Part shown: positions 42,217 to 58,405 of the stretch, piece by piece
Layout: every line of letters begins with the position of its first letter
Position numbering within the stretch: the stretch's first letter is position 1
From: Acetomicrobium flavidum
Lineage (GTDB): Bacteria; Synergistota; Synergistia; Synergistales; Acetomicrobiaceae
Assembly: GCF_900129645.1 (NCBI RefSeq)
Contig: NZ_FSQZ01000001.1
Span: forward strand, 1,240,001-1,304,000
Length of the DNA: 64,000 bases
Direction: 5' to 3'
The notes under the pieces: generated by a model
Databases searched by the model: none
The model's input: the letters and a program-made list of their open reading frames with translations, nothing else
Told to the model about the DNA's origin: nothing
Made by a program: the position numbers and the translations under genes

Positions 42217-42681
42217 ATAGAATCAATAACGAGTCAAATCCTATCAAAGATTGACGAAGTTCATCAGCTCTATTATCGCTTAATCCTATTAGTAGGTCCC
42301 GCAGGTAGTGGCAAGACAAATATTATGAAACAAATTTCTATAAATAAATCCTCCCCGCTTATAAATGTAAACTTTAGCCTATCTCGCCGGTTACTTGATC
42401 TCTCCGAACGAAAGCGTATCCTCAAATTACCGGATTTTATTAGTGAAATAATAGATCTAACTAACGGAGATTTAGTTTTGCTTGATAATATAGAGCTTCT
42501 CTTTGATGTTCACTTGAAGCATGACCCTCTACGTTTACTTCAAGGGATATCTCGAAATGTCACTGTTGTGTCCACATGGAATGGATCGATTACAAGTGGT
42601 CATCTGATTTATGCTAGCCCTGGCCATCCGGAATATCATCGTTATCCTATTGAAAGCTTTCTAGTAGTCAATATGAGATAA
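42217..42681 (+). CDS. brxF: BREX type 3 protein BrxF (ATPase)
   Basis: 154 residues if read from ATA 42217. P-loop GPAGSGKT at 27-34 after the strand YRLILLV, and a Walker B-like strand LVLLDNIE with Asp90. Size, motifs and position before brxC match BrxF. The frame is open back to a TGA at 42208-42210, yet it holds no ATG, GTG or TTG before the P-loop. ATA 42217 is ideally spaced behind AAAGGAG (42201-42207); the first ATG, 42325, would remove the P-loop. Either a rare ATA start is used or the start codon is mutated and the gene is impaired. Confidence 0.75.
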   Translation: MESITSQILSKIDEVHQLYYRLILLVGPAGSGKTNIMKQISINKSSPLINVNFSLSRRLLDLSERKRILKLPDFISEIIDLTNGDLVLLDNIELLFDVHLKHDPLRLLQGISRNVTVVSTWNGSITSGHLIYASPGHPEYHRYPIESFLVVNMR

Positions 42682-42727
42682 CATGATGTAATTAAAAATA
42701 AAAACGAGTTTTAGGGGGCAATTGGAA

Positions 42728-45700
42728 ATGAAATATAGAGACCTAATTCAATTTGAGCCCATCGAAACTGTGATTCAGTTGCGTGATGCCAACGAATTTA
42801 CGAAGGCCCGGCAATTAGTCAGTACGTACGTCATATCAGATGAGATGGCAGAAAAGCTTACGAACATTGTGTTTCCCCAACTACAATTCGATAGCCCTTC
42901 GGATAACAAAGCTTTGTTGATTGTAGGCAATTACGGTACTGGCAAATCTCATTTGATGTCAGTAATATCCAGTATTGCCGAGCATGAAACCCTTCTTTCT
43001 GCTTTAAACAACGAAAAAGTTGCGACATCGGCGCAAACCATAGCCGGTAAATTCAAAGTGGTTCGCAGAGAGATAGGATCGACCAAGATGTCTTTGCGAG
43101 ATATTGTCACATTCTATTTAGAGGACGCTCTAAAGGATATGGGCATTACATATACATTCCCAGATGCTAGCCAAATACCAACCAACAAACAAGCTTTCGA
43201 GGAAATGATGGCTTCGTTCCAAACGGTGTTTCCGGACCATGGCCTTCTTTTAGTTGTAGATGAGCTTTTAGATTATTTACGTACCAGAAGGGACCAAGAA
43301 TTGATTTCAGATCTGAGCTTTTTACGCGAAATTGGCGAGGTATGCAAATATTTGCGTTTTCGTTTTATAGCTGGCGTGCAGGAAGCAATTTTTGATAACC
43401 CTCGTTTCGCTAATGTGGCTGAACAACTTAGTTGGGTAAAGAGTCGTTTTGAACAAATAGTCATATTTCGAAAGGATATTAAGTTTGTCGTGGCTGAACG
43501 ATTACTTAAAAAAACGGCAGAACAGCAGGTACGGATACGCAGTTATCTTACACCTTTCGCAAAATTTTATGGCCGCATGAACGAGCGGATGGATGAATTC
43601 GTGCGCCTTTTCCCTATTCATCCGGATTATATAGATGTATTTGAACAAATTAGGATAATAGAGAAGCGGCAAATCCTTAAGACTTTGTCTTATACCATAA
43701 AGAATCTTATTGCAGAAGAAGTACCTACGGACCGACCGGGAATTATAGCGTACGACAGCTATTGGGCTACCATTAAAAGCGATCCGTCCTTTCGTGCTAT
43801 ACCAGATGTTAGGGAAGTTATCGATGTTAGTCAAACTTTGGAGTCCAGGGTAGAACAGGCCTTCACGCGCCCACAATATAGACCATTGGCCATTAAGATA
43901 ATCCACGCTCTTTCCGTTCATCGACTAACGACTGGCGACATTTACGCACCTTTGGGTGCCACCGCCGAGGAACTGCGCGATACGCTTTGCCTCTATCAGC
44001 CAGGTATAGAAGAACTAGGAGGAGAGCCAGCGGACGACTTATTAACTCACATTAAAATGATACTTAACGAAATTAAAAAGACTGTCAGCGGTCAGTTCAT
44101 CTCATTTAACAAAGATAACAATCAATGGTATCTCGACCTTAAGAAATCAGAGGACTACGATGCGATCATTGAAAGGAGATCTGAGAGCATAGATGATAAT
44201 GCTTTGGATCGGGGCTACTACGATGCCCTTAAGAACTTGATGGAGAAGACAGACAATCCTACCTACGTGACTGGGTATAAAATATGGGAACATGAGCTGT
44301 TGTGGCCCGAGCGAAATGTCGCGAGGAAGGGTTATCTTTTCTTTGGAGCTCCCAATGAACGCTCGACTGCTGTGCCGCCGCGTGATTTTTACATTTACTT
44401 CATTCAACCATTTGATCCGCCATACTTTAAAGACGAAAAGAAGGCAGACGAAATATTTTTCCGTTTGACTAACGTGGATGAAAACTTTAAGGTAATGTTA
44501 GCTAGATATGCTGCAGCTTTGGATCTGGCCTCCATATCCAGCGGCAATGCCGTAAATATCTATAAATCCAAGGCCTTAGGATTTTGGAAAGAGATTGTCA
44601 TGTGGCTACAAAAAAATGCCATCAATGTCTTCAGCGTAGTTTACCGCGGTAGTACCAAAAGCTTTGATGAGGCATTACGCTATGTCTCCAATGCCTCAAG
44701 CGAATTAGGGGCGAGAGCTCACCAGGTTGCACATTATTTGCAAACGCCTGATACCTCCAGTTTTGGCTTTCGCGACTTGGTTAATGTCGTTGCTGGCACT
44801 ATGTTATCTGCGCATTTTCTAGATCAAGCCCCAGAGTATCCAAGATTTAGCGTACCGATCACAAGTCAAAACCGAGAACGGGCGGTACAAGACGCTCTGC
44901 GCGCGATAGCTGGGCAACGCACCAAGCAAGCAACTGCGGTGCTAGATGCCCTAGAGTTGTTAGATGGCGAAAGGCTTGATCCGGCCAAATCCAGATATGC
45001 AAAGCACATCTTGGATATCCTTGGTAAAAAAGGCCATGGCCAGGTGGTAAACCGTTCAGAGCTTATCCAGAGTTTTAACGATGTGGAGTATTTTGCCCTG
45101 GATAAAGGTTATCGCTTAGAACCCGAATGGGTCGTAGTGCTTTTGGCCGCTTTGGTTTACTCCGGAGATATTGTCCTTTCGATCCCCGGCAGGAAATTTG
45201 ATGCGACAGCTTTGTCCGAATTGGCCGCTGAACCAATAAGCGAACTGGTCAATTTTAAACACATAGAAAGACCAAAGGAGTGGAACTTGCCGGCCCTTGG
45301 AGCCTTATTTGAATTGCTAGATCTGACGCCGGGCATGGTTCGACTCATCGCTCTGGGCAAAGATGATCCGGTTGTCGAAATGCAAAAAAAGGTAAACGAG
45401 TATTTGGAGCGGATTGTTTTAGCCCAACAAACATTACGTCAAGGCATTACCTTTTGGGGTGAATATATTTTAGACGAATCGGCACAACGGGAATACTCCT
45501 CGGCACTTGAACAAATGAAAAGTTTTTTGGAAAGCTTACGAGCTTTTAATACGTCTGGCAAGCTCAAAAACTTTCATTACGACGAAGTGCAAGAAATTAA
45601 ACGTTACGAGGATAATTTAAAATCTCTTTTGCAGGTCGAATTTTTGCGGGATTTACTAAACGATCTGAAAGATATAGTTTCATATCTATCTAATGCCGAA

Positions 45701-46525
45701 AAGCTTATGCCAAAGGACCACGAATGGAACAAGAAGGCAAGAGAAATTCGAGCCCAAACAATAACTTCGATTAAGAGTAAATGGATGGATGCAGTAGGCG
45801 ATAGGCTGAATTGTGGGAGTGGTGATTTATTGCCAAAGCTATGGCGAGATTTGACCAACCTTAAAGAATCCTACATCAATGCTTATCTAGATATGCACAC
45901 CAAGGCTAGATTGGGCGTGAACGAGGACAGAAGAAAAAAAGAGCTGATGAATAATGACGAGCGGTTAAAAGCACTACGTGACTTAGCCAGCATAGATCTC
46001 ATGCCACAATCTCAACTGATAGAGCTTGAAGGACGTTTGATCAGCTTAAAAAGCTGCTTTAAGCTTACCGAACATGATCTTGTCGTAAAGCCGGAATGTC
46101 CATATTGTTCCTTCCGGCCGGCGGTAGAGACGCCCCTCAGATCTGCAGCTATTGAGCTTGAATCCCTAGATGAGAGACTAGATAATTTGTTTAACGAATG
46201 GACTGTTACGTTGCTAACCAACCTAGAAGACCCAACAGTTCAGAATAACCTCGATTTGCTGAAACCGGAGGATCGAAAACAAATTGAGAAATTTATGGAA
46301 GAAAGACGATTGCCCGACGTGCTGGGCAAGGATTTTATTCGCGCCATACAGGAAGTTTTGTCAGGTCTTGTGAAAATCGAAGTCAAGATAGAAGATTTGC
46401 ACCAAGCCCTCCTTGCAGGCGGTTCGCCGGTGACGTTGGATGAAATGAAGAAACGTTTTGAAGCCTATTTGACAGAGCTCGCCAGGGGTAAAGAGCCCAA
46501 CAAGGTTAGGATAGTATTAGAGTAA
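42728..46525 (+). CDS. brxC: BREX protein BrxC (large P-loop ATPase)
   Basis: 1265 residues from ATG 42728 (SD AGGGGG nine bases upstream; TTG 42722 is too close to it). Walker A GNYGTGKS at 67-74 and Walker [13 protein letters not shown] with Asp178-Glu179. The rest is largely helical, with a CPYCSF zinc-knuckle-like pair near the C-terminus. Size and features match the BrxC/PglY group, a large AAA+-like ATPase needed for both methylation and phage blocking. AT-rich codon use differs from the genes to the left. It follows brxF by 46 bases. Confidence 0.88.
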
Positions 46526-46570: not shown

Positions 46571-49500
46571 GTGAGCGAAAAAACAAGACAACATCGTCAA
46601 CAGATCTTGTTTGATTTAGAATCTATGCCCTCTGGCAAGGTGGACTTAGGTGCCTCTATAAGTTGCCTGGGTATTACATTTGAAAATGACGAAAAGCGGC
46701 GGGAATACTTCCTTGATCTGCTTCACAAAGGACTGGAAGAATTAAATGCCAAGCTTAAAGGCGTTCCTTTTACTACGTTAGATGACACCATATCTCGTTT
46801 GAAGTCGCTCGAACATTGGTCCGTTGGCGACGATGATTGCATAAATAAACTTGCCCTTTGCATGGCCGAAGCGGCACGAATTTCCCGCCGCGGAAGCCGG
46901 GATGTGGATCTTTTAACGCTTTATAAAGACGAGGTTGGCTTCCCTCGCGGCAAGATCGAGGATATCTTGCGCCTTTCCGACCCGCCTTATTATACGGCCT
47001 GCCCTAATCCATTCATCGAGGATTTCATCAGATGTCATGGCAAATCATATGATCCGCAAAGCAGTAATTACCATCGCGAGCCCTTCGCAGCCGATGTAAG
47101 CGAGGGCAAAAATGACCCGATCTATAACGCTCACTCCTATCACACAAAGGTGCCACATAAAGCAATCATGCGATATATACTGCACTACACTGAACCGGGC
47201 GATATTGTCTTTGATGGTTTTTGCGGCACGGGAATGACCGGCGTGGCGGCTCAACTTTGCGGTGACCGCAACACAGTGGAATCTCTTGGTTATATGGTGG
47301 ACGATCAGGGGATAGTGTACCAACAGGAAACAGAGGATAACGGAAAAAGCGCGTGGAAACCTTTTTCTAAACTTGGCGCTAGATACGCAGTGTTAAATGA
47401 TCTGTCGCCAGCTGCTACATTCATAGCTTATAACTATAACACTCCGGTAGACGTCAAAGCCTTTGAGCGTGAAGCTAAACGTATTCTACGTGAAGTTGAA
47501 GAAGAATGCGGCTGGATGTACGCTACATTGCCTCAGGGGGAGACTGACAAAGCAGAAATTTGGGCTGATGAGCTTAAAATGTGTAAAACCGCCGATGAAG
47601 CCAGAAAACTAATTCGTGCAATCCCAAACCTGGGACAGATCAACTATACGGTTTGGTCTGACGTGTTTATATGTCCAGAATGTACAAAGGAAGTCGTTTT
47701 CTGGGAATCTGCCGTGGACAAAAATGCCGGCAAAGTCTACAATGAGTTTCCTTGTCCACATTGCGGTGCTTTGCTCACCAAGCGCAACATGGATCGTGCC
47801 TGGGTGACCAAATATGATAGCGCCATTGGCAAGACCATCCGCCAGGCAAAGCAAGTTCCGGTGCTCATAAATTATAGGGTGGGCAAAAAGCGCTACGAGA
47901 AAGCGCCCGATGACTTTGATATAGCGCTTATTGACAAGATCGAACAGCTCGATATTCCCTATTGGTTCCCTACAGACCCAATCCCTAAAGGCGACAAAAC
48001 TGGCGAGCCACTTCGTATTGGTATTACCCACGTGCATCATTTCTATACGAAGCGAAATTTGTGGGTGCTGGGGGCCTTACGGCATCGAGTTAATATGATT
48101 AGTACCTTATCTTTACATTATTGGCTTAATTCTCTTGATCATGGGTTAGGTAAACGTGTGAAACATGGTAATTGGTCTTTTCCAATGAGCGTATTGTCAG
48201 GCACTTTATATATTCCTGCACTATCTAGAGAAAATAACCCTCTTTATTTTTTTGAAGCAAAAAGAAGGAAGCAAGCATGTGCCCTATCTGAAACAAAAGC
48301 ACATATTAATATTTTGGCAACTCATTCATCTTCAACTTTGATAATAAAAGATCAATATATAGATTATATTTTCACTGACCCTCCTTTTGGTGGAAATTTG
48401 ATGTATTCAGAGCTTAATTTCTTGTGGGAAGCATGGCTCAGAGTTTTCACCAACAACAAACCAGAGGCCATCGAAAATAAGGTTCAAGGAAAGGGACTAC
48501 CGGAATACCAACGACTTATGACGGAGTGCTTCAAAGAATATTATCGGGTGCTTAAGCCTGGTCGTTGGATGACGGTGGAATTTCATAACTCTAAAAACAG
48601 CGTATGGAACGCCATTCAAGAAGCCTTACAAGTGGCTGGGTTTGTGGTTGCAGATGTTCGCACACTTGACAAAAAACAAGGCTCTTTTAATCAGGTAACG
48701 CAAACAGGTTCAGTGAAGCAAGATATCATAATTTCATGTTATAAACCTAACGAAGGTTTGGAAGAACGTTTCAAAATTGAGGCTGGCAGCGAAGAAGGTG
48801 TCTGGGACTTCGTCCGCATGCATTTAAAAAAGCTTCCGGTATTCATCTCCAAGGACGGCAAGGCAGAGGTCATTGCCGAGCGTCAAAACTATTTACTCTT
48901 CGACAGAATGGTGGCTTTTCATGTCCAGCGTGGAGTTACTGTACCACTTTCTGCAGCCGAGTTTTACGAAGGCCTTGCCCAACGATTTCCGGAACGTGAT
49001 GGCATGTATTTCTTGCCTGACCAGGTAGTGGAATATGACAAAAAACGCATGAAAATCAAAGAGGTTATGCAGCTTGAGCTTGCCGTTACCGATGAATCCT
49101 CTGCAATTCAATGGCTTAAGATAAATCTCAACAGAAAGCCGCAAAGTTTCCAGGAACTACATCCGCAGTTCATAAAGGAGATTGGCGGCTGGCAAAAACA
49201 CGAAAAACCGCTTGAACTTTTGGAAATTTTGGAACAGAACTTTCTTCGCTATGACGGGAAAGGGCCAATTCCTGCGCAAATAGTTTCTTGGATGAAACAA
49301 AGCGCTGATTTGCGCAAAATCATACAAGAAGAGCTAGCAAGAGGTAGTTCGAGGGAAGAAAATGGCCAATTATACACTGAAAACCAAGAGCTTATAAAAC
49401 GTGCAAAGGATCGTTGGTATGTCCCCGATCCAAATAAAGCGAGCGATTTAGAGAGGCTTCGTGAGCGTGCCTTATTGCGCGAATTTGAGGAATACAGAGA

Positions 49501-49690
49501 TTCCAAACAGAAACGACTTAGGGTATTTAGACTCGAAGCTGTTCGTGCCGGCTTCAAGAAGGCTTGGCAAGAACGCGATTACGCAACCATCATCGCCATA
49601 GCGCGCAAAATCCCAGAAAGTGCACTTCAAGAAGACCCAAAATTGTTGATGTGGTACGATCAAGCGCGCATGCGCTTTGGAGTTGAATGA
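46571..49690 (+). CDS. pglX: BREX adenine-specific DNA methyltransferase PglX
   Basis: 1039 residues. AdoMet motif I VFDGFCGTGMTG starts at 213, after a YHTKVPHKAI segment, and the catalytic motif IV is TDPPFGGN with Asp603, giving the X-I-IV order of an N6-adenine methylase. A zinc ribbon (CPEC...CPHC) lies near 367-395. This is the shorter PglXI type of BREX type 3, not the 1200-residue type 1 form. It marks host DNA at a non-palindromic site. GTG 46571 has GGAAGGTGG ten bases upstream. Its TGA ends one base before the next gene's first start codon. Confidence 0.88.
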   Translation: MSEKTRQHRQQILFDLESMPSGKVDLGASISCLGITFENDEKRREYFLDLLHKGLEELNAKLKGVPFTTLDDTISRLKSLEHWSVGDDDCINKLALCMAEAARISRRGSRDVDLLTLYKDEVGFPRGKIEDILRLSDPPYYTACPNPFIEDFIRCHGKSYDPQSSNYHREPFAADVSEGKNDPIYNAHSYHTKVPHKAIMRYILHYTEPGDIVFDGFCGTGMTGVAAQLCGDRNTVESLGYMVDDQGIVYQQETEDNGKSAWKPFSKLGARYAVLNDLSPAATFIAYNYNTPVDVKAFEREAKRILREVEEECGWMYATLPQGETDKAEIWADELKMCKTADEARKLIRAIPNLGQINYTVWSDVFICPECTKEVVFWESAVDKNAGKVYNEFPCPHCGALLTKRNMDRAWVTKYDSAIGKTIRQAKQVPVLINYRVGKKRYEKAPDDFDIALIDKIEQLDIPYWFPTDPIPKGDKTGEPLRIGITHVHHFYTKRNLWVLGALRHRVNMISTLSLHYWLNSLDHGLGKRVKHGNWSFPMSVLSGTLYIPALSRENNPLYFFEAKRRKQACALSETKAHINILATHSSSTLIIKDQYIDYIFTDPPFGGNLMYSELNFLWEAWLRVFTNNKPEAIENKVQGKGLPEYQRLMTECFKEYYRVLKPGRWMTVEFHNSKNSVWNAIQEALQVAGFVVADVRTLDKKQGSFNQVTQTGSVKQDIIISCYKPNEGLEERFKIEAGSEEGVWDFVRMHLKKLPVFISKDGKAEVIAERQNYLLFDRMVAFHVQRGVTVPLSAAEFYEGLAQRFPERDGMYFLPDQVVEYDKKRMKIKEVMQLELAVTDESSAIQWLKINLNRKPQSFQELHPQFIKEIGGWQKHEKPLELLEILEQNFLRYDGKGPIPAQIVSWMKQSADLRKIIQEELARGSSREENGQLYTENQELIKRAKDRWYVPDPNKASDLERLRERALLREFEEYRDSKQKRLRVFRLEAVRAGFKKAWQERDYATIIAIARKIPESALQEDPKLLMWYDQARMRFGVE

Positions 49691-49693
49691 TTG

Positions 49694-51022
49694 ATGAACA
49701 CTAACATACCAACACTAGAACCTGCGTATGATTTTAACGCTGATGTGCATAGCATACAGTTATATTGTGGGCGGGTTGAGATATGTATTGATGGGAATAT
49801 CTATGTAGGTGATGGTGAAGTTCGTTTGGACTTTTTGCCGAAAGCTAGCGTTAACTTCTATGGCCATTTTCATAATGTACCATTTGAAGATAGATTAAAA
49901 GAAATTTCATTTTTTACCATTAATAACATCAAAGTTGAGTGTTTAAAGCTTTCAGGAGATTTAAATTTAACATCTGATGAATTCAACGTAAAGTGTTGTC
50001 CGAAGTTAGAGCCCATAAACTGTATCGGAAATGACTCGACCCAAATAAAATGGATTTTATTTCATTTATTTAATTTTGTTGACTTAATTGGTAACAGGAA
50101 AACCGTAGAACAAAGCGAAGAAAAAGGTTACTTGATTCAACGTATGGATTTATTTTGTGATGATTGGAAAGTTGAATTGAAATCTCTTATTTCTACAAAT
50201 GAGAACATTAAGTTGCTTAGAGAAGGAGGGGGATATCGTTTAACTCACATTGGCTGCATTACGAGAACCAATGATGCTCAATTTACGGGAAAAATGGCAA
50301 AAGAGTTTTTATATGCACTTCGATTTTTTCTTTCCTTTGCTAAGGGGGGATGGTGCGAGCCTATATGTGCTGTAGGATTTGACAATGCTGGGAATCGAGT
50401 TTGGGAATTGTGGTCTTCCCCCAAAGAGCCGTGGGTTGTACCAGTGACTTGGTTTGATCCATATAATTCTTATCAGTTGGTCGAGTTGTTTCCTAATTTT
50501 ATGAAAAGATGGGCTGATGACAGCTGGCAAGAAGCATTACGCGAAGTTGTTTATTGGTACCTGAACGCCAATAACCCATCTCGAGGAGTGGATGCAGGTA
50601 TCATTTTAACCCAAGCAGCTCTTGAAAGGCTATCCTATGAATATGTGGTGAAGGACAAAAAACTTCTGTCAGTAGATGGTTTTAAAAATATTTGGGCATC
50701 GGATAAGTTGCGCTTGTTGTTTTCGAGTTTAAGGATACCTCTTGATATACCAGTTGAAGCTCATAATTTGCAATGTTTTTCTCTTTCAAAACAGATAAAA
50801 TGGTTAGACGCTCCTCATGCTCTTACGGAGATTAGGAACTCACTTGTTCATCCAGAACATAAACATCGAGGCCGTTATGATACTGCTTACTATGAAGCGT
50901 GGAATTTAGGCTTGTGGTACCTAGAGATGAGCATTTTGGCAATTTGTAATTATACAAGCACCTATGGAAACAGATTAAAACAACGTTGGGTTGGAGAAAT
51001 TGAGGATGTGCCATGGAAATAA
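49694..51022 (+). CDS. HEPN-domain protein embedded in the BREX operon
   Basis: About 442 residues, no membrane segments. Residues 1-190 are rich in beta strands; from about 200 the protein is helical. The C-terminal region has two HEPN-like helices, GIILTQAALERLSYEYVV near 300 and LTEIRNSLVHPEH near 377-389, with Arg381-Asn-x3-His386, the RNxxxH (Rx4-6H) motif of HEPN ribonucleases. The order, a beta-rich N-terminus plus a C-terminal HEPN, resembles ApeA-type defence proteins. It begins three bases after pglX and its last ten bases overlap brxH, so it is translated with the BREX genes. It is not a standard type 3 gene. RNase action is inferred from the motif only. Confidence 0.65.
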   Translation: MNTNIPTLEPAYDFNADVHSIQLYCGRVEICIDGNIYVGDGEVRLDFLPKASVNFYGHFHNVPFEDRLKEISFFTINNIKVECLKLSGDLNLTSDEFNVKCCPKLEPINCIGNDSTQIKWILFHLFNFVDLIGNRKTVEQSEEKGYLIQRMDLFCDDWKVELKSLISTNENIKLLREGGGYRLTHIGCITRTNDAQFTGKMAKEFLYALRFFLSFAKGGWCEPICAVGFDNAGNRVWELWSSPKEPWVVPVTWFDPYNSYQLVELFPNFMKRWADDSWQEALREVVYWYLNANNPSRGVDAGIILTQAALERLSYEYVVKDKKLLSVDGFKNIWASDKLRLLFSSLRIPLDIPVEAHNLQCFSLSKQIKWLDAPHALTEIRNSLVHPEHKHRGRYDTAYYEAWNLGLWYLEMSILAICNYTSTYGNRLKQRWVGEIEDVPWK

Positions 51023-53814
51023 ACAATACAGAATGGTACTACAACTCGGATTATAACGGCCTTTGCCGTGTAATTGAAACCCAGACGCTTTGGGGCGAGA
51101 CTATTTGCCGTGTCTGGATGCCTAATAAAAATGCTGTTGTTCGTATATCAGCTTCACAGCTTAAACCGTTAAGTGAAATTACAATCGATAATAAACACCG
51201 GATAGCCTATCTTGCTTTCGCAGCGAAGGTTGTCGATGCTTTGACTCAAGATGTTTTGCTTGCGCCAATAGAATCACAGGTCATCCCATTGCCTCACCAA
51301 GTTAAAGCCCTGTCTAAAGCTGTTTCCTCGAATTGGGTTCGCTACCTTTTGGCGGACGAAGTTGGGCTTGGCAAGACCATTGAAGCAGGGCTCATAATGC
51401 GTGAGTTAAAGCTCCGTGGCTTAGTTAAGCGCACTTTGGTTGTTGTACCTAAAGGGTTAGTAGCCCAATGGATAGCCGAGATGCGCTTTCATTTTAAAGA
51501 AGAGTTTCGTTTTATCATACCAAGCGACTTTTCTGCTTATCGACGAATAGCTAGTCAAGAAAACCTGTGGCAAATTCATCCTCAAGTGATCTGTTCAATG
51601 GATTCAGTGAAACCCTTAGATAACCGACGCGGATGGTCGATGGAACAGGTTGCTGAGTATAATAAAGAACGCTTCGAGAATCTGATCTCTGCCGGATGGG
51701 ATCTGGTCATAGTAGACGAGGCACACCGTTTAAGCGGCAGCACGGATCAGGTGGCTCGTTATAAACTTGGTTTGGGACTTTCGAAAGCTGCTCCTTATTT
51801 GCTTTTGCTCTCCGCTACGCCGCATCAAGGTAAGACGGATGCTTTCCATAGGCTGCTTTCGCTCCTAGATGCCCAAGCATTTCCCGATGTAAATAGCGTA
51901 TCTAAAGATCGGGTGCAGCCGTATGTAATTCGAACGGAGAAGCGTAAAGCCATAGATGTGCAAGGTCAGCCGCTATTCAAGCCGCGATATACACATTTAG
52001 TGTCAGTTTCTTGGGAAAATTGTCACAGGCAGCAAAAATTGCTTTATGAAGAAGTAACTAAATATGTCCGCAAAGGCTATAACAGAGCGAAGCTTGAAAA
52101 GCGCAATTATATTGGATTTCTAATGATTTTAATGCAACGATTGGTAGTATCGAGTACGCGAGCTATTCGCACGTCGCTTGAAAGGCGTCTCGAAGTGCTT
52201 GAAGAGCCGCTTGAACAGTTATCATTATCCCCAGTTATTATAGAGGAAGATTGGGCCGATTTGGATGGTCAGGAGCAAATAGATATAGCCATTAGACTTC
52301 GGTCCGAAGCTTTAAAGGATGAAAAGACGGAGGTAAGCCGTCTTTTAGATTTAGCCAAAGATTGTGAAAGCCAAAGTTACGATGCTAAGGCTGAAGCGCT
52401 TGTTAGCTGGATTTACCGACTTCAGGCTGATGAAGGTGATCCTGGTCTTAAAGTGCTGGTTTTTACAGAGTTTGTGCCAACTCAGGAGATGCTTTACGAG
52501 TTTTTAACGGAGAGGGGCATCTCTGCGGCCTGCCTTAATGGCTCTATGGATATGGACGAGCGTGTTCGAGTGCAAAAAGCTTTTGCGGAAGATGTGCGTG
52601 TTCTAATTTCGACGGACGCTGGTGGCGAGGGCCTTAATCTCCAATTTTGTCACGTGGTGATAAATTACGATATCCCCTGGAACCCAATGCGCTTGGAACA
52701 GCGTATTGGCAGGGTAGATCGCATCGGCCAGTCGCGTATGGTTAGAGCTTTTAATTTTGTATTTGATGACTCCGTGGAAAAGCGAGTTCGGGAGGTGTTG
52801 GAAGAAAAGCTGGATGTCATATTTCAAGAATTTGGCATAGACAAGACTGCTGATGTACTTGATTCTGCCCAAGCAGGCCAGATGTTCGATGATCTTTACG
52901 TCGAAGCCATACTGAATCCAGAAAATGTGGAGACCAAGGTTGACGAGGTGGTAAAAAGCATTCGACAACAGGCTATGGAGTCAAAACAGAGTGCCTCTTT
53001 GCTTGGATCTGCTGAAGATTTAAACCCTCGGGAGGCACAACAGTTGTTGGCTCATCCCTTTCCATATTGGGTAGAACAAATGACGATAAACTATATTTTG
53101 GCCAATGGTGGCATGGCTGAGAAAAAAGATGGCGCATGGGATCTAACTTGGCCAGACAATGAGAAAATGGCTAATGTTGTATTTGACAAAGAAGAAATGA
53201 TAAAAAATCCGTCAAAATACTATCTCACCTTTGAGGACCCCAAGATAAGAGCTCTGACCATGAATCTTCCGCCATTTGTGCCAGGGCAACCAATACCGAT
53301 AATTGCTGTTCAAGGCCTTCCATTGGAGATAGTTGGTTTTTGGTCGCTATGGCGAATTTCAATCTCTACTGCTGACTGGAATCGTTATAGGGTCATGCCC
53401 TTATTCTTAGCTGATGGTGGTCAGATATTTATTCCCACCGCCAGGCATATTTGGGATCAATTATTAAGCACATATCCCCGGATAATTTGTCACATGGATG
53501 TTGACAGTTCTCGCCTGGTTTTTGAGCAACTTTGGAAGGCAGGAGAACAACAAGGCAAGTTTATCTATGATGAACTGCTCCAGGCCCATAAAAGACATCT
53601 TATCTGGGAGCAAGAAAAGGGCGAGTATGCCTTTGATGCACGACGTAGGATAATAATGCGAATTGGTCTAAAACAGGTACGTAATCACCGCCTGAAGATC
53701 TTGGAACGAGAGGAACGATATTTCCATGAGGAGCTTAAACTTAAAGCAAAGGTTATGCCGGAAATGGTTCCTGTGCTAATGGCTCGCATAGAAGGAGAAA
53801 CCGCCGATGGCTAG
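51013..53814 (+). CDS. brxHII: BREX SNF2-like helicase BrxH
   Basis: 933 residues. Helicase core in two lobes: motif I DEVGLGKT (115-122), motif II DEAH (235-238), LLLSATPHQG (motif III), and in the second lobe LKVLVFTEFVPTQ, STDAGGEGLNLQ and RIGRVDRIGQ (motif VI). This is the SF2 RapA/SNF2 type found in type 3 BREX as BrxHII. The ATG at 51013 lies inside the last codons of the HEPN gene; the stop overlaps pglZ by eight bases. Confidence 0.88.
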   Translation: MEINNTEWYYNSDYNGLCRVIETQTLWGETICRVWMPNKNAVVRISASQLKPLSEITIDNKHRIAYLAFAAKVVDALTQDVLLAPIESQVIPLPHQVKALSKAVSSNWVRYLLADEVGLGKTIEAGLIMRELKLRGLVKRTLVVVPKGLVAQWIAEMRFHFKEEFRFIIPSDFSAYRRIASQENLWQIHPQVICSMDSVKPLDNRRGWSMEQVAEYNKERFENLISAGWDLVIVDEAHRLSGSTDQVARYKLGLGLSKAAPYLLLLSATPHQGKTDAFHRLLSLLDAQAFPDVNSVSKDRVQPYVIRTEKRKAIDVQGQPLFKPRYTHLVSVSWENCHRQQKLLYEEVTKYVRKGYNRAKLEKRNYIGFLMILMQRLVVSSTRAIRTSLERRLEVLEEPLEQLSLSPVIIEEDWADLDGQEQIDIAIRLRSEALKDEKTEVSRLLDLAKDCESQSYDAKAEALVSWIYRLQADEGDPGLKVLVFTEFVPTQEMLYEFLTERGISAACLNGSMDMDERVRVQKAFAEDVRVLISTDAGGEGLNLQFCHVVINYDIPWNPMRLEQRIGRVDRIGQSRMVRAFNFVFDDSVEKRVREVLEEKLDVIFQEFGIDKTADVLDSAQAGQMFDDLYVEAILNPENVETKVDEVVKSIRQQAMESKQSASLLGSAEDLNPREAQQLLAHPFPYWVEQMTINYILANGGMAEKKDGAWDLTWPDNEKMANVVFDKEEMIKNPSKYYLTFEDPKIRALTMNLPPFVPGQPIPIIAVQGLPLEIVGFWSLWRISISTADWNRYRVMPLFLADGGQIFIPTARHIWDQLLSTYPRIICHMDVDSSRLVFEQLWKAGEQQGKFIYDELLQAHKRHLIWEQEKGEYAFDARRRIIMRIGLKQVRNHRLKILEREERYFHEELKLKAKVMPEMVPVLMARIEGETADG

Positions 53815-55801
53815 TTGGCGTGATATAATCCTTAGTGAGTTTCAGCCTCAAATCGCACGCCTAACATTAGTTGCAGATCCTGATGATTTGTTGCTTGAAG
53901 AGGACATCTTTGAAGAAATGCGCGCAAGGGGTTTTGATCTGATACCTTTTGATGATAATGTTGCATTTAGGTACATTTATGAATCCAAGTTCCGTTCTCG
54001 TTGGGACAATGGTGAAGAGACCGATTCAATGGCTGTTCTTAGGTTGACTTCAAATGAACTAGATTTATTGCCATATGACTTACTACAAGCTGGACGCAAG
54101 GTTTCGATTTCCTTGGCTGATATTTTCCCAAATTTAAGCTATCCAGTTGTTGCGACACTTGATTTCATTTACCTTGATGCTTTATTCCAAGCTCAAGATA
54201 AGTTTTCGCCAGGACGATTGGGGGATAACGCTACTAAAAGTTTCATACTTCGCTACGTATTTGAAATAATCCCGGAGTTTATTAAAGAGCCTAAGGATCT
54301 GCTTTTGGTGTTGCTTCGTCGACATTACCTCGGCATGAGAATTCCGCCGATCGTTGATGAGTACCTTATTCAGTTTCTTCAGCAGAATGAGATGTTCAAA
54401 GATTGGCCTTTAGATATTATCGTTTCGGATAGGCAGGCCTTTTTTGCATTTCTTCAAGAACGATGGCCTATATTTTTAAATACACTAGCATTAAAAGGCA
54501 ATGAAGTTTGTGAAGATCCTTCAAGATATGGATTAAGGTTTTCGGGCCCGGCCCTTTTGCCATTTGATCATGAGGAAATTCGCGTTTATATTGATGACCT
54601 ATTTCTTGAAGGCTTACTTCATCCTGTTCCTTGCAGAGAAGCGCAATTACCTAAAGAACACTGGATAAAATTTGGCGTAACAATTGACCCTGAAGAAAGC
54701 TATTATCGTCGCATTGTTGGATTGATGGATTCCGTCGAAGAAAACTTAAAGGATAATATGCGGCATGAGATGTGGCTTCACTTTGCCTATAAATGGGCTG
54801 AACTTTTAGCCTTAGAATTTACATCAGACTTTGGTTTACCTGATACGTGTAAAGAACGCATGGATGCACTAAAATCAAAGATCGATGGAATGTTTCAAGA
54901 TTGGATTTTGAAGCGTTATGCGAGCCTTATAAATCTTTCGCCGGCATCTCCAGTAATGTTACATCATATTCCTAGATTCCTTGCGCGAAATCTAGCAGGG
55001 GATAAGCGCACTAAAATAGCCCTTTTGTTAATTGATGGCCTTGCTTTAGATCAATGGATAACATTACGTAATGTCTTAAAAGAGTTGGATTCAAGATTGC
55101 AGTTTAGAGAGTCTGCGGTTTTTGCGTGGATACCAACTTTAACGTCAGTATCTCGACAAGCGGCATTTGCTGGGAAACCTCCCATGTTCTTTCCGACAAA
55201 CATTCGAACGACTGATAGGGAATCGAATCTTTGGGCTCAATTCTGGGCAGAGCAAGGACTTAGTGCCAATGATACAGCTTACATCAGAGGGTTAGGTAAT
55301 GAAATATCTAATAAACATTATGAGGTTCTAAAACAAGATCGATTACGAATAGCTGGTTTGGTCGTAGATAAGATTGATCGTATAATGCATGGAATGGAGT
55401 TAGGTACTGCTGGCATGCATAATCAGATTTGGCAATGGACTAAGCAGGGATTCATGAGAGACCTTTTAAGCATTTTAATAGATAATGATTTTAAAGTATA
55501 TATTACATCAGATCATGGGAACATCGAGGCCAAGGGAATTGGTTGTCCTAATGAAGGGGTAACTGCAGAATTGCGGGGAGAGCGTGTTCGTATATATTCC
55601 GATCTAAGTTTAAGAACAAAGTGCAAAATGTCATTTCCCGATTCACTGGAATGGCCGTCTATTGGCCTCCCAGAAGATTATTATGCTTTAATTGCACCAA
55701 GCAGGGCGGCCTTTATTCGTAAAGACGATGTGATTGTAAGTCATGGCGGCATTAGCATCGAGGAAGTTATAGCCCCATTTATCGAGGTTGAACGAGCATA
55801 A
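53807..55801 (+). CDS. pglZ: BREX phosphatase-domain protein PglZ
   Basis: 664 residues. PglZ domain (alkaline-phosphatase fold) in the C-terminal half: LLLIDGLALDQW with metal-site Asp410, and ITSDHGNIEAKG with Asp569-His570, then a late SHGG His. PglZ is the universal BREX signature gene and is needed for defence. The N-terminal 350 residues are helical. The start ATG 53807 overlaps brxH. Confidence 0.88.
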   Translation: MASWRDIILSEFQPQIARLTLVADPDDLLLEEDIFEEMRARGFDLIPFDDNVAFRYIYESKFRSRWDNGEETDSMAVLRLTSNELDLLPYDLLQAGRKVSISLADIFPNLSYPVVATLDFIYLDALFQAQDKFSPGRLGDNATKSFILRYVFEIIPEFIKEPKDLLLVLLRRHYLGMRIPPIVDEYLIQFLQQNEMFKDWPLDIIVSDRQAFFAFLQERWPIFLNTLALKGNEVCEDPSRYGLRFSGPALLPFDHEEIRVYIDDLFLEGLLHPVPCREAQLPKEHWIKFGVTIDPEESYYRRIVGLMDSVEENLKDNMRHEMWLHFAYKWAELLALEFTSDFGLPDTCKERMDALKSKIDGMFQDWILKRYASLINLSPASPVMLHHIPRFLARNLAGDKRTKIALLLIDGLALDQWITLRNVLKELDSRLQFRESAVFAWIPTLTSVSRQAAFAGKPPMFFPTNIRTTDRESNLWAQFWAEQGLSANDTAYIRGLGNEISNKHYEVLKQDRLRIAGLVVDKIDRIMHGMELGTAGMHNQIWQWTKQGFMRDLLSILIDNDFKVYITSDHGNIEAKGIGCPNEGVTAELRGERVRIYSDLSLRTKCKMSFPDSLEWPSIGLPEDYYALIAPSRAAFIRKDDVIVSHGGISIEEVIAPFIEVERA

Positions 55802-55832
55802 AACGAGCGGATCCTTTCATGGGGGTGAGTTT

Positions 55833-56612
55833 GTGCCACATAACGGCCAGCTAACGTCACAAAAAAGATTTTCACAAATTGGTTTTAGTAGGCTGATACG
55901 CCTAGAGTGGCTGGAAAGAACAGCTAATTTAGTCCTTGCCGGAAACGACGAGTCATCCATTTATGATGCCCTTCAAAGGTTACTAGACAATAAGCTCTAT
56001 GGTGGTAAAAACGTTAAAGGTGGCAGTAGGGAAAAAACAATTGCTATTTTAAGGAAAGTATGGGTTCGTCCTCCCATCCATCTGATTTGTCTTAGAGACG
56101 ATGGCCTGGAAATTTTATCGCATATCCCACGTGAAGAGCATGTAATAATTCATTGGGGTATGACCATGGCAGCATATCCTTTTTGGAGTGCTGTGGCAAT
56201 GCATATAGGAAGGCAGCTGAGACTTCAAGGTACAACGTCAGTCGGCCAAGTGCAACGTCGCATTAGCGAGCAATATGGAGAACGAGGTGCAGTATCTCTG
56301 GCTGTACAAAAGATATTTCTTAGCCTTGCCGATTGGGGTCTGCTTAGTAGAACTGCAAATAGGGGGATTTATGTCCCAGGACTTTCATTTGCCATTAATG
56401 ACATAAGGGTTATTGCTTGGCTGGTCGAGGCTTTTTTGCATGTCCACCAAGGGGGCCCGTTGATGTTGGATACCATACTTAACTCACCAAGTTTATTTCC
56501 CTTTCTTATTAACCCAGTGTCAGCTGGTCAATTGGTCAAGGCCTCAGGGCGCCTCGATGCTTTCTCAGTTGGAATTGGTCAAGATTTTTTGGTAATAGGC
56601 AAGGCTAACTAG
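55833..56612 (+). CDS. brxA: Probable BREX protein BrxA
   Basis: 259 residues from GTG 55833, chosen for the strong SD GGGGGTGAG just upstream; a TTG at 55788 in frame overlaps pglZ and has no SD. Small helical protein; the N-terminal segment FSRLIRLEWLERTANLVLAG and the following helix with a conserved-looking SREKTIAILRKVW resemble the BrxA (DUF1819) layout, a DNA-binding winged-helix protein. The assignment leans on position after pglZ, where type 3 loci can carry brxA, and similarity is modest. Confidence 0.55.
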   Translation: MPHNGQLTSQKRFSQIGFSRLIRLEWLERTANLVLAGNDESSIYDALQRLLDNKLYGGKNVKGGSREKTIAILRKVWVRPPIHLICLRDDGLEILSHIPREEHVIIHWGMTMAAYPFWSAVAMHIGRQLRLQGTTSVGQVQRRISEQYGERGAVSLAVQKIFLSLADWGLLSRTANRGIYVPGLSFAINDIRVIAWLVEAFLHVHQGGPLMLDTILNSPSLFPFLINPVSAGQLVKASGRLDAFSVGIGQDFLVIGKAN

Positions 56613-56641: not shown

Positions 56642-58405
56642 ATGCCGGATGTTGTTTTTAAAAAGGTCGATTATACCCTCAAGAAGCTTGTGGAGGATAT
56701 TGATATAGGAGAGATTGGGCTACCCGATATCCAAAGACCGTTTGTTTGGCCAAGCAGCAAAGTGCGGGACTTGTTTGACTCAATGTATCGTGGTTATCCG
56801 ATAGGTTATTTTTTATTTTGGGAGAATGGCTTCCCCGGTGAGCATAAGGTCATAGGGACTGGCCAAAAGCAAAAAGCCCCTCGTTTGTTAATAGTAGACG
56901 GCCAACAACGATTGGCTTCATTATACACAGTAACTAAGGCAGTTCCTATTGTAAGTAAAGATTTTCGTCATGCTCGTATTCGTATTGCCTTTAACCCCAT
57001 AGAAGAAAGATTTGAAGTTACAAACCCTGTCATTGAAAGTGATGTGAAATGGATTTCCGATATAAGCGAGATATGGAAACCGGAAATGAGCAGTTATACG
57101 TTTATAAATAAATTCTTTTATCGTCTTGGAGCAAATCGTGAAATTGCCGATGAAGAAAGAACAAAAATAGCAAATTCAATCACACGGTTAGAAAAGCTCT
57201 TAGATTATCCCCTTACTGCGTTGGAAATATCTTCTTCTGTTGATGAAGATAGAGTTGCAGAAATATTTGTTCGCATCAATAGCAAGGGTACACCGCTTAA
57301 TCAGGCTGATTTTATTCTTACACTTATGTCGGTGTTTTGGGATGATGGTCGAAAACAGTTGGAGGAGTTTTGCCGTCAGGCTAAAAAACCACCAGTTGAT
57401 AATCGTCCATCACCATATAACCATTACCTTACTCCTAGCCCTGATCAGTTGTTAAGGCCTAGTGTTGCCCTTGGTTTTCGTCGAGCAAGGTTAGAGCACG
57501 TATATTCGCTACTGCGCGGGAAGGATTTGCAAACTCAGCAGTTTTCTGTAGAGCAGAGAGAAAAACAATTTGATACATTGAGAGAAGCTCAGGATTGTGT
57601 TTTGAACCTCCAAAATTGGCACGATTTCTTTAAGGTGCTAAAGCGTGCCGGTTATCAAAGCGGTAAGCTCATCTCCTCCGAAATGGCAATAGTCTATACA
57701 TATGCAATGTGGTTGATCGGTAAGATGGATTATTGCGTAGACCCTTATTACCTGAGAGAAGTTATGGCTCGCTGGTTTTTTATGGTAGCTCTTACGGGAC
57801 GTTACACCGGCTCTCCAGAAAGTCGTATGGAGCAGGATTTAGCGCTCTTACGGGCGATCGATACAGCTGAAGGGTTTGTGAAAGTGCTGGATCAACAAAT
57901 AAATGCCATTTTTACAAGAGACTATTGGGAAGTGACCCTGCCTAACGAATTAGAGACAGCTGCCGCTCGCAGTACTGGCCAATTTGCCTTTTATGCAGCG
58001 CTTTGCCTTCTTGATGCCAATGTGTTGTACTCTAAGATGAAGGTCTCTGAATTGTTGGATCCAACCATTAAAAGTAAAAAGAAAGCCCTGGAACGTCATC
58101 ATCTGTTTCCTCGGCGATATTTGCAGAAAATTGGCATTCGAGAGAAGCGTCTTATTTATCAGACGGCTAACTACGCCTTGGTGGAATGGCGTGACAATAT
58201 AGCCATATCGGATAAAGCACCCAAGGATTATGTGCCTCAAATTGAGGCCAGATTTACCGGTGAAGAACTGCAAAAAATGTATACGTTGCATGCGCTGCCC
58301 GAAAGATGGTATGAAATGGAACATACGACCTTCTTAAATGAGCGTAGAAAATTAATGGCTGATATCATTCGCAGGGGATTTATGAAATTGAAAGAAAATA
58401 TATAA
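56642..58405 (+). CDS. Fused GmrSD/BrxU-like DUF262-DUF1524 nuclease
   Basis: 587 residues. The N-terminal DUF262 (GmrS-like, ParB-type NTPase) part has PDIQRPFVW near 30, DGQQR at 86-90 and FVRINSKGTPLNQADFIL near 215. The C-terminal DUF1524/HNH (GmrD-like) part has RHHLFPRRYL with His486-His487, the metal-finger nuclease core. GmrSD and BrxU cut DNA with modified (e.g. glucosylated hydroxymethyl) cytosines. It is 29 bases after brxA, AT-rich like it, and probably the last gene of the operon. SD AAAGGATG precedes ATG 56642. Confidence 0.8.
   Translation: MPDVVFKKVDYTLKKLVEDIDIGEIGLPDIQRPFVWPSSKVRDLFDSMYRGYPIGYFLFWENGFPGEHKVIGTGQKQKAPRLLIVDGQQRLASLYTVTKAVPIVSKDFRHARIRIAFNPIEERFEVTNPVIESDVKWISDISEIWKPEMSSYTFINKFFYRLGANREIADEERTKIANSITRLEKLLDYPLTALEISSSVDEDRVAEIFVRINSKGTPLNQADFILTLMSVFWDDGRKQLEEFCRQAKKPPVDNRPSPYNHYLTPSPDQLLRPSVALGFRRARLEHVYSLLRGKDLQTQQFSVEQREKQFDTLREAQDCVLNLQNWHDFFKVLKRAGYQSGKLISSEMAIVYTYAMWLIGKMDYCVDPYYLREVMARWFFMVALTGRYTGSPESRMEQDLALLRAIDTAEGFVKVLDQQINAIFTRDYWEVTLPNELETAAARSTGQFAFYAALCLLDANVLYSKMKVSELLDPTIKSKKKALERHHLFPRRYLQKIGIREKRLIYQTANYALVEWRDNIAISDKAPKDYVPQIEARFTGEELQKMYTLHALPERWYEMEHTTFLNERRKLMADIIRRGFMKLKENI

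Follow-up and report, generated by a model that had tools for sequence, protein, structure and literature searches.

A type 3 BREX operon in Acetomicrobium flavidum contains, between pglX and brxH, a gene for a 442-residue protein, and the position of this gene raises the question of whether the protein is part of the BREX machinery, a regulator of it, or a defense effector carried within the operon. We analyzed this gene, here called the slot gene, within a stretch of 64,000 nucleotides (the window), together with its homologs and with other type 3 BREX loci.

The slot gene lies in a complete type 3 BREX operon

The core set of brxF, brxC, pglX, brxH, pglZ and brxA is present in the window, which identifies the system as type 3 BREX. 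The gene order is brxF, brxC, pglXI, slot gene, SNF2-type helicase, pglZ and brxA, followed by a GmrSD-type gene:

42325..42681, + strand: brxF (NF033453, 3e-44; also PADLOC)
42722..46525, + strand: brxC (DUF6079; PADLOC BrxC, 1892 bits)
46571..49690, + strand: pglX, PglXI methyltransferase and specificity factor (pglXI, 1487 bits)
49679..49682, + strand: GGAG, Shine-Dalgarno-like, within the end of pglX and 11 nt before the slot gene ATG (sequence read directly)
49694..51022, + strand: slot gene, ApeA-like HEPN protein gene, 442 aa
51013..53814, + strand: brxH, SNF2-type helicase (PADLOC BrxHI/BrxHII, 1515 bits)
53807..55801, + strand: pglZ, BREX-3 type (NF033449, 1e-252)
55788..56612, + strand: brxA (1e-88)
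56642..58405, + strand: GmrSD-type (BrxU-like) gene (PF03235), 30 bp after brxA

The name brxHII, given to the helicase gene in an earlier note on this DNA, matches usage in a recent BREX survey (PMC12839542). The GmrSD-type gene is a second accessory defense gene of the operon, and 95% identity is retained in a congener.

Direct reading of the sequence places the ATG of the slot gene at 49694, three bases beyond the end of pglX at 49690, and gives 442 residues and a TAA stop; brxH starts at 51013 and thereby overlaps the last bases of the slot gene by 10 bp. The length, position, spacing and overlap reported in the earlier note, and its R381-N382-x3-H386 motif, are thus all correct. A promoter scan of 49000-51400 returned six candidates against 5.9 expected, which is chance level, and a terminator scan of the same interval found none; the scan thus speaks neither for nor against a promoter of the gene's own. 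The operon layout suggests that BREX may provide both transcription and translational coupling for the slot gene.

Invariant residues point to a HEPN RNase

The slot protein itself has no match in Pfam, PADLOC or NCBIfam and no sequence relative in the PDB. No database family passes its cut-off for it, the best single match being HEPN_Apea at E=0.071 in one homolog, and three scans of viral contigs returned no relative. A scan with each species represented by one genome nonetheless recovered homologs at 22 loci, spanning Pseudomonadota, Planctomycetota, Chloroflexota, Cyanobacteriota, Synergistota and methanogenic archaea. Others were found in seven plasmid records and in three genomes of the window's phylum, including its own; of the copies in these three genomes, one is broken by a stop. 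Among the plasmid matches, H17 and H18 are further E. coli records whose match is confined to the first part of the gene.

The 27 aligned homologs, from bacteria and archaea, share a mean pairwise identity of 34%, and only 11 columns are invariant. Four of these, without exception, are E311, R381, N382 and H386:

50624..50626, + strand: codon of E311, invariant acidic residue (27 homologs), aligned with ApeA E319
50834..50851, + strand: R381-N382-x3-H386, RNase motif Rx4H, invariant in 27 homologs, aligned with TRNYLTH of ApeA proteins

The active site of HEPN RNases is defined by an acid, an arginine, the polar residue after it and a histidine (PMC3710099). Across the superfamily this takes the form Rx4-6H with N, D or H right after the arginine and an upstream acid, often as Ex3[KR], and the RNA cleavage is metal-independent (PMC3710099). 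In all 27 homologs the slot family shows R381-x4-H386, with an invariant N382 as the polar residue and an invariant E311 as the second, upstream conserved acid; with Y at +4 from E311, the Ex3[KR] pattern is incomplete. Shared invariance of these four residues is, as judged from the alignment, more than chance. The earlier note would have given up its HEPN assignment had R381 and H386 varied among homologs, and neither does.

Predicted fold and relation to ApeA

An AlphaFold2 model of the full-length protein, built with 21 homologs (pLDDT 90.9, pTM 0.90), contains two domains:

49751..50263, + strand: N-terminal beta-rich domain, residues 20-190 (AlphaFold2 strands, pLDDT mostly >85)
50471..50944, + strand: C-terminal helical domain, residues 260-417 (AlphaFold2, full length and domain alone; ApeA profile match)

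The first is presumed to act as sensor or regulator, and the second is the presumed HEPN RNase. Modeled alone, the C-terminal domain is all-helical (pLDDT 91.9), and the HEPN fold is an all-helical bundle with four core helices (PMC3710099); R381 and H386 sit at the end of the modeled helix 373-385. Foldseek searches of the whole chain against the PDB and viral structures returned no meaningful match, and the helical domain alone had no significant match in the PDB. The list for the helical domain is headed by the HEPN-containing Csm6, then by an entry named 'HEPN domain protein', and holds about a dozen HEPN structures in its first 50 entries (among them HEPN-MNT toxins, Csx1-Crn2 and RNase L), none of them significant, so that it lends the predicted fold weak support and not proof. 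The beta-rich and helical halves described in the earlier note therefore reappear in the model, whereas the HEPN fold match itself is not statistically significant. The same note took a missing HEPN fold around residues 300-440 as grounds for rejection, and an all-helical domain is predicted there, with non-significant Foldseek matches.

Remote homology was examined by aligning the profile of the slot family with that of 12 HEPN_Apea-type proteins (hhalign). The profiles align over residues 180-423 with a score of 45.0 and a probability of 62.6, in a register that places R381-N382-H386 on TRNYLTH and E311 on a conserved E of ApeA. The controls (30 column shuffles, one reversal, six unrelated BREX families) all stay at or below 22.4. 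The similarity is visible by profiles only: BLASTP of the slot protein against one ApeA-type protein gave nothing, and the Pfam gathering threshold of ApeA (PF18739) is not reached. As in ApeA (ApeA-NTD1 plus HEPN, PMC3710099), a beta-rich N-terminal half precedes a C-terminal helical domain, and the upstream conserved E and RNxxxH follow in the same order; unlike ApeA, the slot protein falls below Pfam detection, has an N-terminal domain that profiles do not align, and is embedded in BREX-3. The model and the profile comparison both bear out the ApeA-like layout proposed earlier. Together, the invariant motif, the two-domain model and the in-register profile match indicate that the slot protein is most probably an RNase belonging to a new ApeA-like family. 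Its layout and motif are those of ApeA, but we do not class it within ApeA itself, because a comparison of the C-terminal domains by themselves scores a weak 19.5 and the N-terminal domains show no match.

The position between pglX and brxH is an exchangeable slot

Type 3 BREX loci were gathered through PglZ or the helicase, blind to the slot gene, giving 25 loci, the window's own not among them, in which both pglX and brxH are in place. The slot family is absent from this position in all 25; nine slots are empty and 16 hold something else. These contents are strongly skewed to known defense effectors and include OLD-type ABC ATPases with TOPRIM-like partners, Schlafen, PHP-ABC, STAND and HATPase genes, a candidate PIN toxin-antitoxin pair (from our own reading of the sequence), a RecD-like helicase, one 248-aa protein without a name and, twice, DUF3644, which is counted as another HEPN family (PMC3710099). 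In several loci, Schlafen genes occupy the adjoining gap between brxC and pglX. Besides the window, one BREX-3 locus alone has the slot family, Sedimenticola L014, which was found through the homolog search and so stands outside the 25; there the HEPN gene follows pglX and is followed by an AAA_21 and DUF4276 pair.

Several slots merit separate mention. An archaeal-phylum BREX-3 locus (L085:8884-12529) carries an entire Thoeris pair (ThsA macro, ThsB TIR) together with an AAA_21/DUF4276 pair between pglX and brxH, and at L084:7537-11225 an OLD-TOPRIM gene and a UvrD helicase gene (Gabija-like) are nested in the slot. The slot proteins of L062:10685-12184 and L063:10076-11605 (499 and 509 aa) have no Pfam match; by our own reading, each has RCLYGH in a helical-looking N-terminal stretch, possibly marking a further HEPN family.

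Absence from 25 independently gathered loci identifies the slot protein as cargo and not as a type 3 BREX component, and we rejected it as a conserved subunit. Membership in the BREX machinery is likewise at odds with the different gene found in a near-identical congeneric operon and with homologs elsewhere. The position is thus an exchangeable slot, in which related operons carry other defense genes or nothing. The earlier note had described the gene as tied into BREX expression and no passenger; its integration into the operon stands, but it is an operon-integrated yet exchangeable passenger.

Joint exchange of pglX and cargo in a congener

The BREX locus of a congener (genome G004, locus L048) is mostly 92-97% identical to the window on both sides of a diverged segment:

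47325..51061, + strand: segment exchanged relative to L048, the 3' two-thirds of pglX plus the slot gene (BLASTN, sliding identity; L048 base composition)

Within pglX, at about 47325, identity drops from >92% to 44-77%; it stays low through the end of that gene and is back at 97% by 51061, 48 bp inside brxH (BLASTN, sliding identity). At the protein level, PglX diverges most at residues 301-350 and 501-600. In place of the slot gene, L048 carries a gene for a 1209-aa RecD-like helicase (L048:8582-12211; GC 0.60 versus about 0.42 around it), and along the L048 locus GC starts at about 0.41-0.51, climbs to 0.54-0.64 across most of the exchanged segment and drops back to about 0.47. Since the identity drop, the changed slot gene and the GC shift share one segment, the cargo has been exchanged in one piece with the specificity-bearing part of pglX, at least in this congeneric pair. 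The C-terminal end of the RecD-like helicase resembles a PD-(D/E)XK nuclease (KSEV...YLPDF...).

Homologs beside other modification systems

Twelve of the 27 homolog loci lie in or beside a DNA-modification system, a lower bound because several loci end at contig ends. The partners are BREX-3 (two loci), MmeI-type (four), Eco57I/TaqI_C (two), type I R-M (L008, L030 and L032) and an N6/N4 methyltransferase-Mrr fusion (L026). At nine of the 12 the HEPN gene comes after the gene with the target-recognition domain, often with an overlap of a few bases. In L022-L025 an MmeI-type methyltransferase gene is followed by the HEPN gene (4-bp overlap) and then by YhcG, helicase and GIY-YIG genes; in L032 the HEPN gene overlaps HsdS by 4 bp; and in L005 and L006, which pair an Eco57I/TaqI_C methyltransferase with an SNF2 helicase, one small ORF separates methyltransferase and HEPN gene. 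Other homologs are solo or stand beside a Ser/Thr kinase gene (L007, L028), and L004 and L018 are examples without any modification gene nearby.

Some of these neighborhoods are of interest in themselves. L022-L025, from betaproteobacteria and Stenotrophomonas, share a conserved module of MmeI-type methyltransferase, ApeA-like HEPN protein, YhcG nuclease, DEAD helicase and T5orf172, with one or another gene absent in two loci, which looks like an undescribed defense system. The HsdS ORF immediately before the HEPN gene at L032:4108-5826 has an N-terminal Pol-beta nucleotidyltransferase domain and recalls MNT-HEPN toxin-antitoxin pairs. The family copy at L008 is on an E. coli IncY plasmid. L015, the nearest relative by tree, was considered as a broken BREX locus and rejected, as no pglX or brxH sequence adjoins it; its upstream side is the contig end.

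Discussion

We consider it likely that the slot gene encodes an ApeA-like HEPN RNase that serves as a second-line, growth-stopping effector and rides as exchangeable cargo in the pglX-brxH slot of type 3 BREX. Judging from the motif and the remote homology, the C-terminal helical domain would cut RNA through R381, N382 and H386 with help from E311. The N-terminal beta-rich domain would keep the enzyme silent and sense infection, and the protein would arrest growth of the cell. Cargo would be exchanged by recombination, at least once (in the one congeneric pair) jointly with the specificity-bearing part of pglX. The RNA-cleaving, abortive layer suggested in the earlier note is likely as a predicted activity.

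How such an enzyme would relate to BREX divides the alternatives. It could be a pure passenger, a defense gene trapped in the operon by recombination that gains a promoter and is otherwise functionally unrelated to BREX; the variety of unrelated genes in the slot, its emptiness in nine of 25 loci and a congener swap that BREX evidently tolerates all fit, but the bias of slot contents to known defense effectors and the recurrence of the family beside modification genes make this rather unlikely. Still somewhat less probable, in our estimate, is a guard like PrrC, with PglX or another BREX subunit binding and silencing the HEPN RNase until a phage inhibits BREX and so sets the RNase free. PrrC inside EcoprrI and PARIS beside BREX are precedents (PMC12707154, PMC11341690), and we keep a guard in view because homologs repeatedly stand directly or almost directly after target-recognition genes, in four kinds of system (pglX in the window and L014, MmeI-type, HsdS, Eco57I/TaqI_C), and because the swap took the slot gene along with the specificity region of pglX. 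Against it, the partners share no sequence and some copies have no modification gene nearby, so that no common silencing subunit is evident; family scan and AlphaFold2 model find no ABC ATPase like that of PrrC; and most type 3 BREX operons manage without the slot family. Because of the unrelated partners and the solo copies, self-contained sensing, as in stand-alone ApeA, is somewhat likelier than a guard and would be the most likely mode for the effector that we propose.

Control of BREX was a further option in the earlier note. HEPN domains without catalytic activity exist (PMC3710099), and a regulatory or RNA-binding BREX subunit without nuclease activity could be imagined; an Rx4H motif and upstream acid that are invariant in 27 homologs, and absence from 25 other type 3 loci, make it very improbable, and control of BREX expression finds no support. 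A bolder extension of the guard would treat slot and pglX specificity region as one cassette, each PglX variant traveling with a matched guarding suicide effector and the HEPN family having evolved, across four or more unrelated modification systems, into the matched partner of target-recognition genes; we regard this as doubtful.

The class to which the putative effector belongs is known and not new, as a 2013 study already reported HEPN genes within Pgl and R-M operons, ApeA proteins inside R-M operons among them (PMC3710099), and a 2026 survey describes auxiliary or backup nuclease effectors of the same class across BREX loci, namely stand-alone HEPN, Schlafen and OLD/TOPRIM (PMC12839542). 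The PrrC anticodon nuclease of EcoprrI (PMC12707154, PMC2610378) is likewise a HEPN RNase encoded in a DNA-modification operon with second-line logic; the slot protein differs from it in unrelated sequence and in lacking a fused SbcC/Rad50-like ABC ATPase. A PrrC-type guard is kept silent by its linked modification enzyme and freed by an anti-restriction protein, a mode that would be hypothetical for the slot protein. PARIS inside Salmonella type 1 BREX (PMC11341690) is similarly an abortive tRNase module nested in a BREX locus, but consists of OLD ATPase and TOPRIM, not HEPN, in another BREX type. As far as could be seen, what is new is an ApeA-like family without a database model that is used by at least four kinds of modification system, along with the counted pglX-brxH slot and the exchange of pglX with its cargo. 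Family, fixed slot and joint exchange are not described in the consulted sections of the 2026 survey, whose supplement may hold part of the slot data (PMC12839542).

If this reading is correct, the second layer of BREX immunity would be modular, with a fixed operon position loaded with whichever abortive effector fits, and BREX loci would therefore be worth searching for new effectors. The two congeneric operons amount to a natural experiment, with different cargo and specificity in the same BREX background. A guard role of HEPN effectors beside target-recognition genes, like that of PrrC for EcoprrI, would also become testable.
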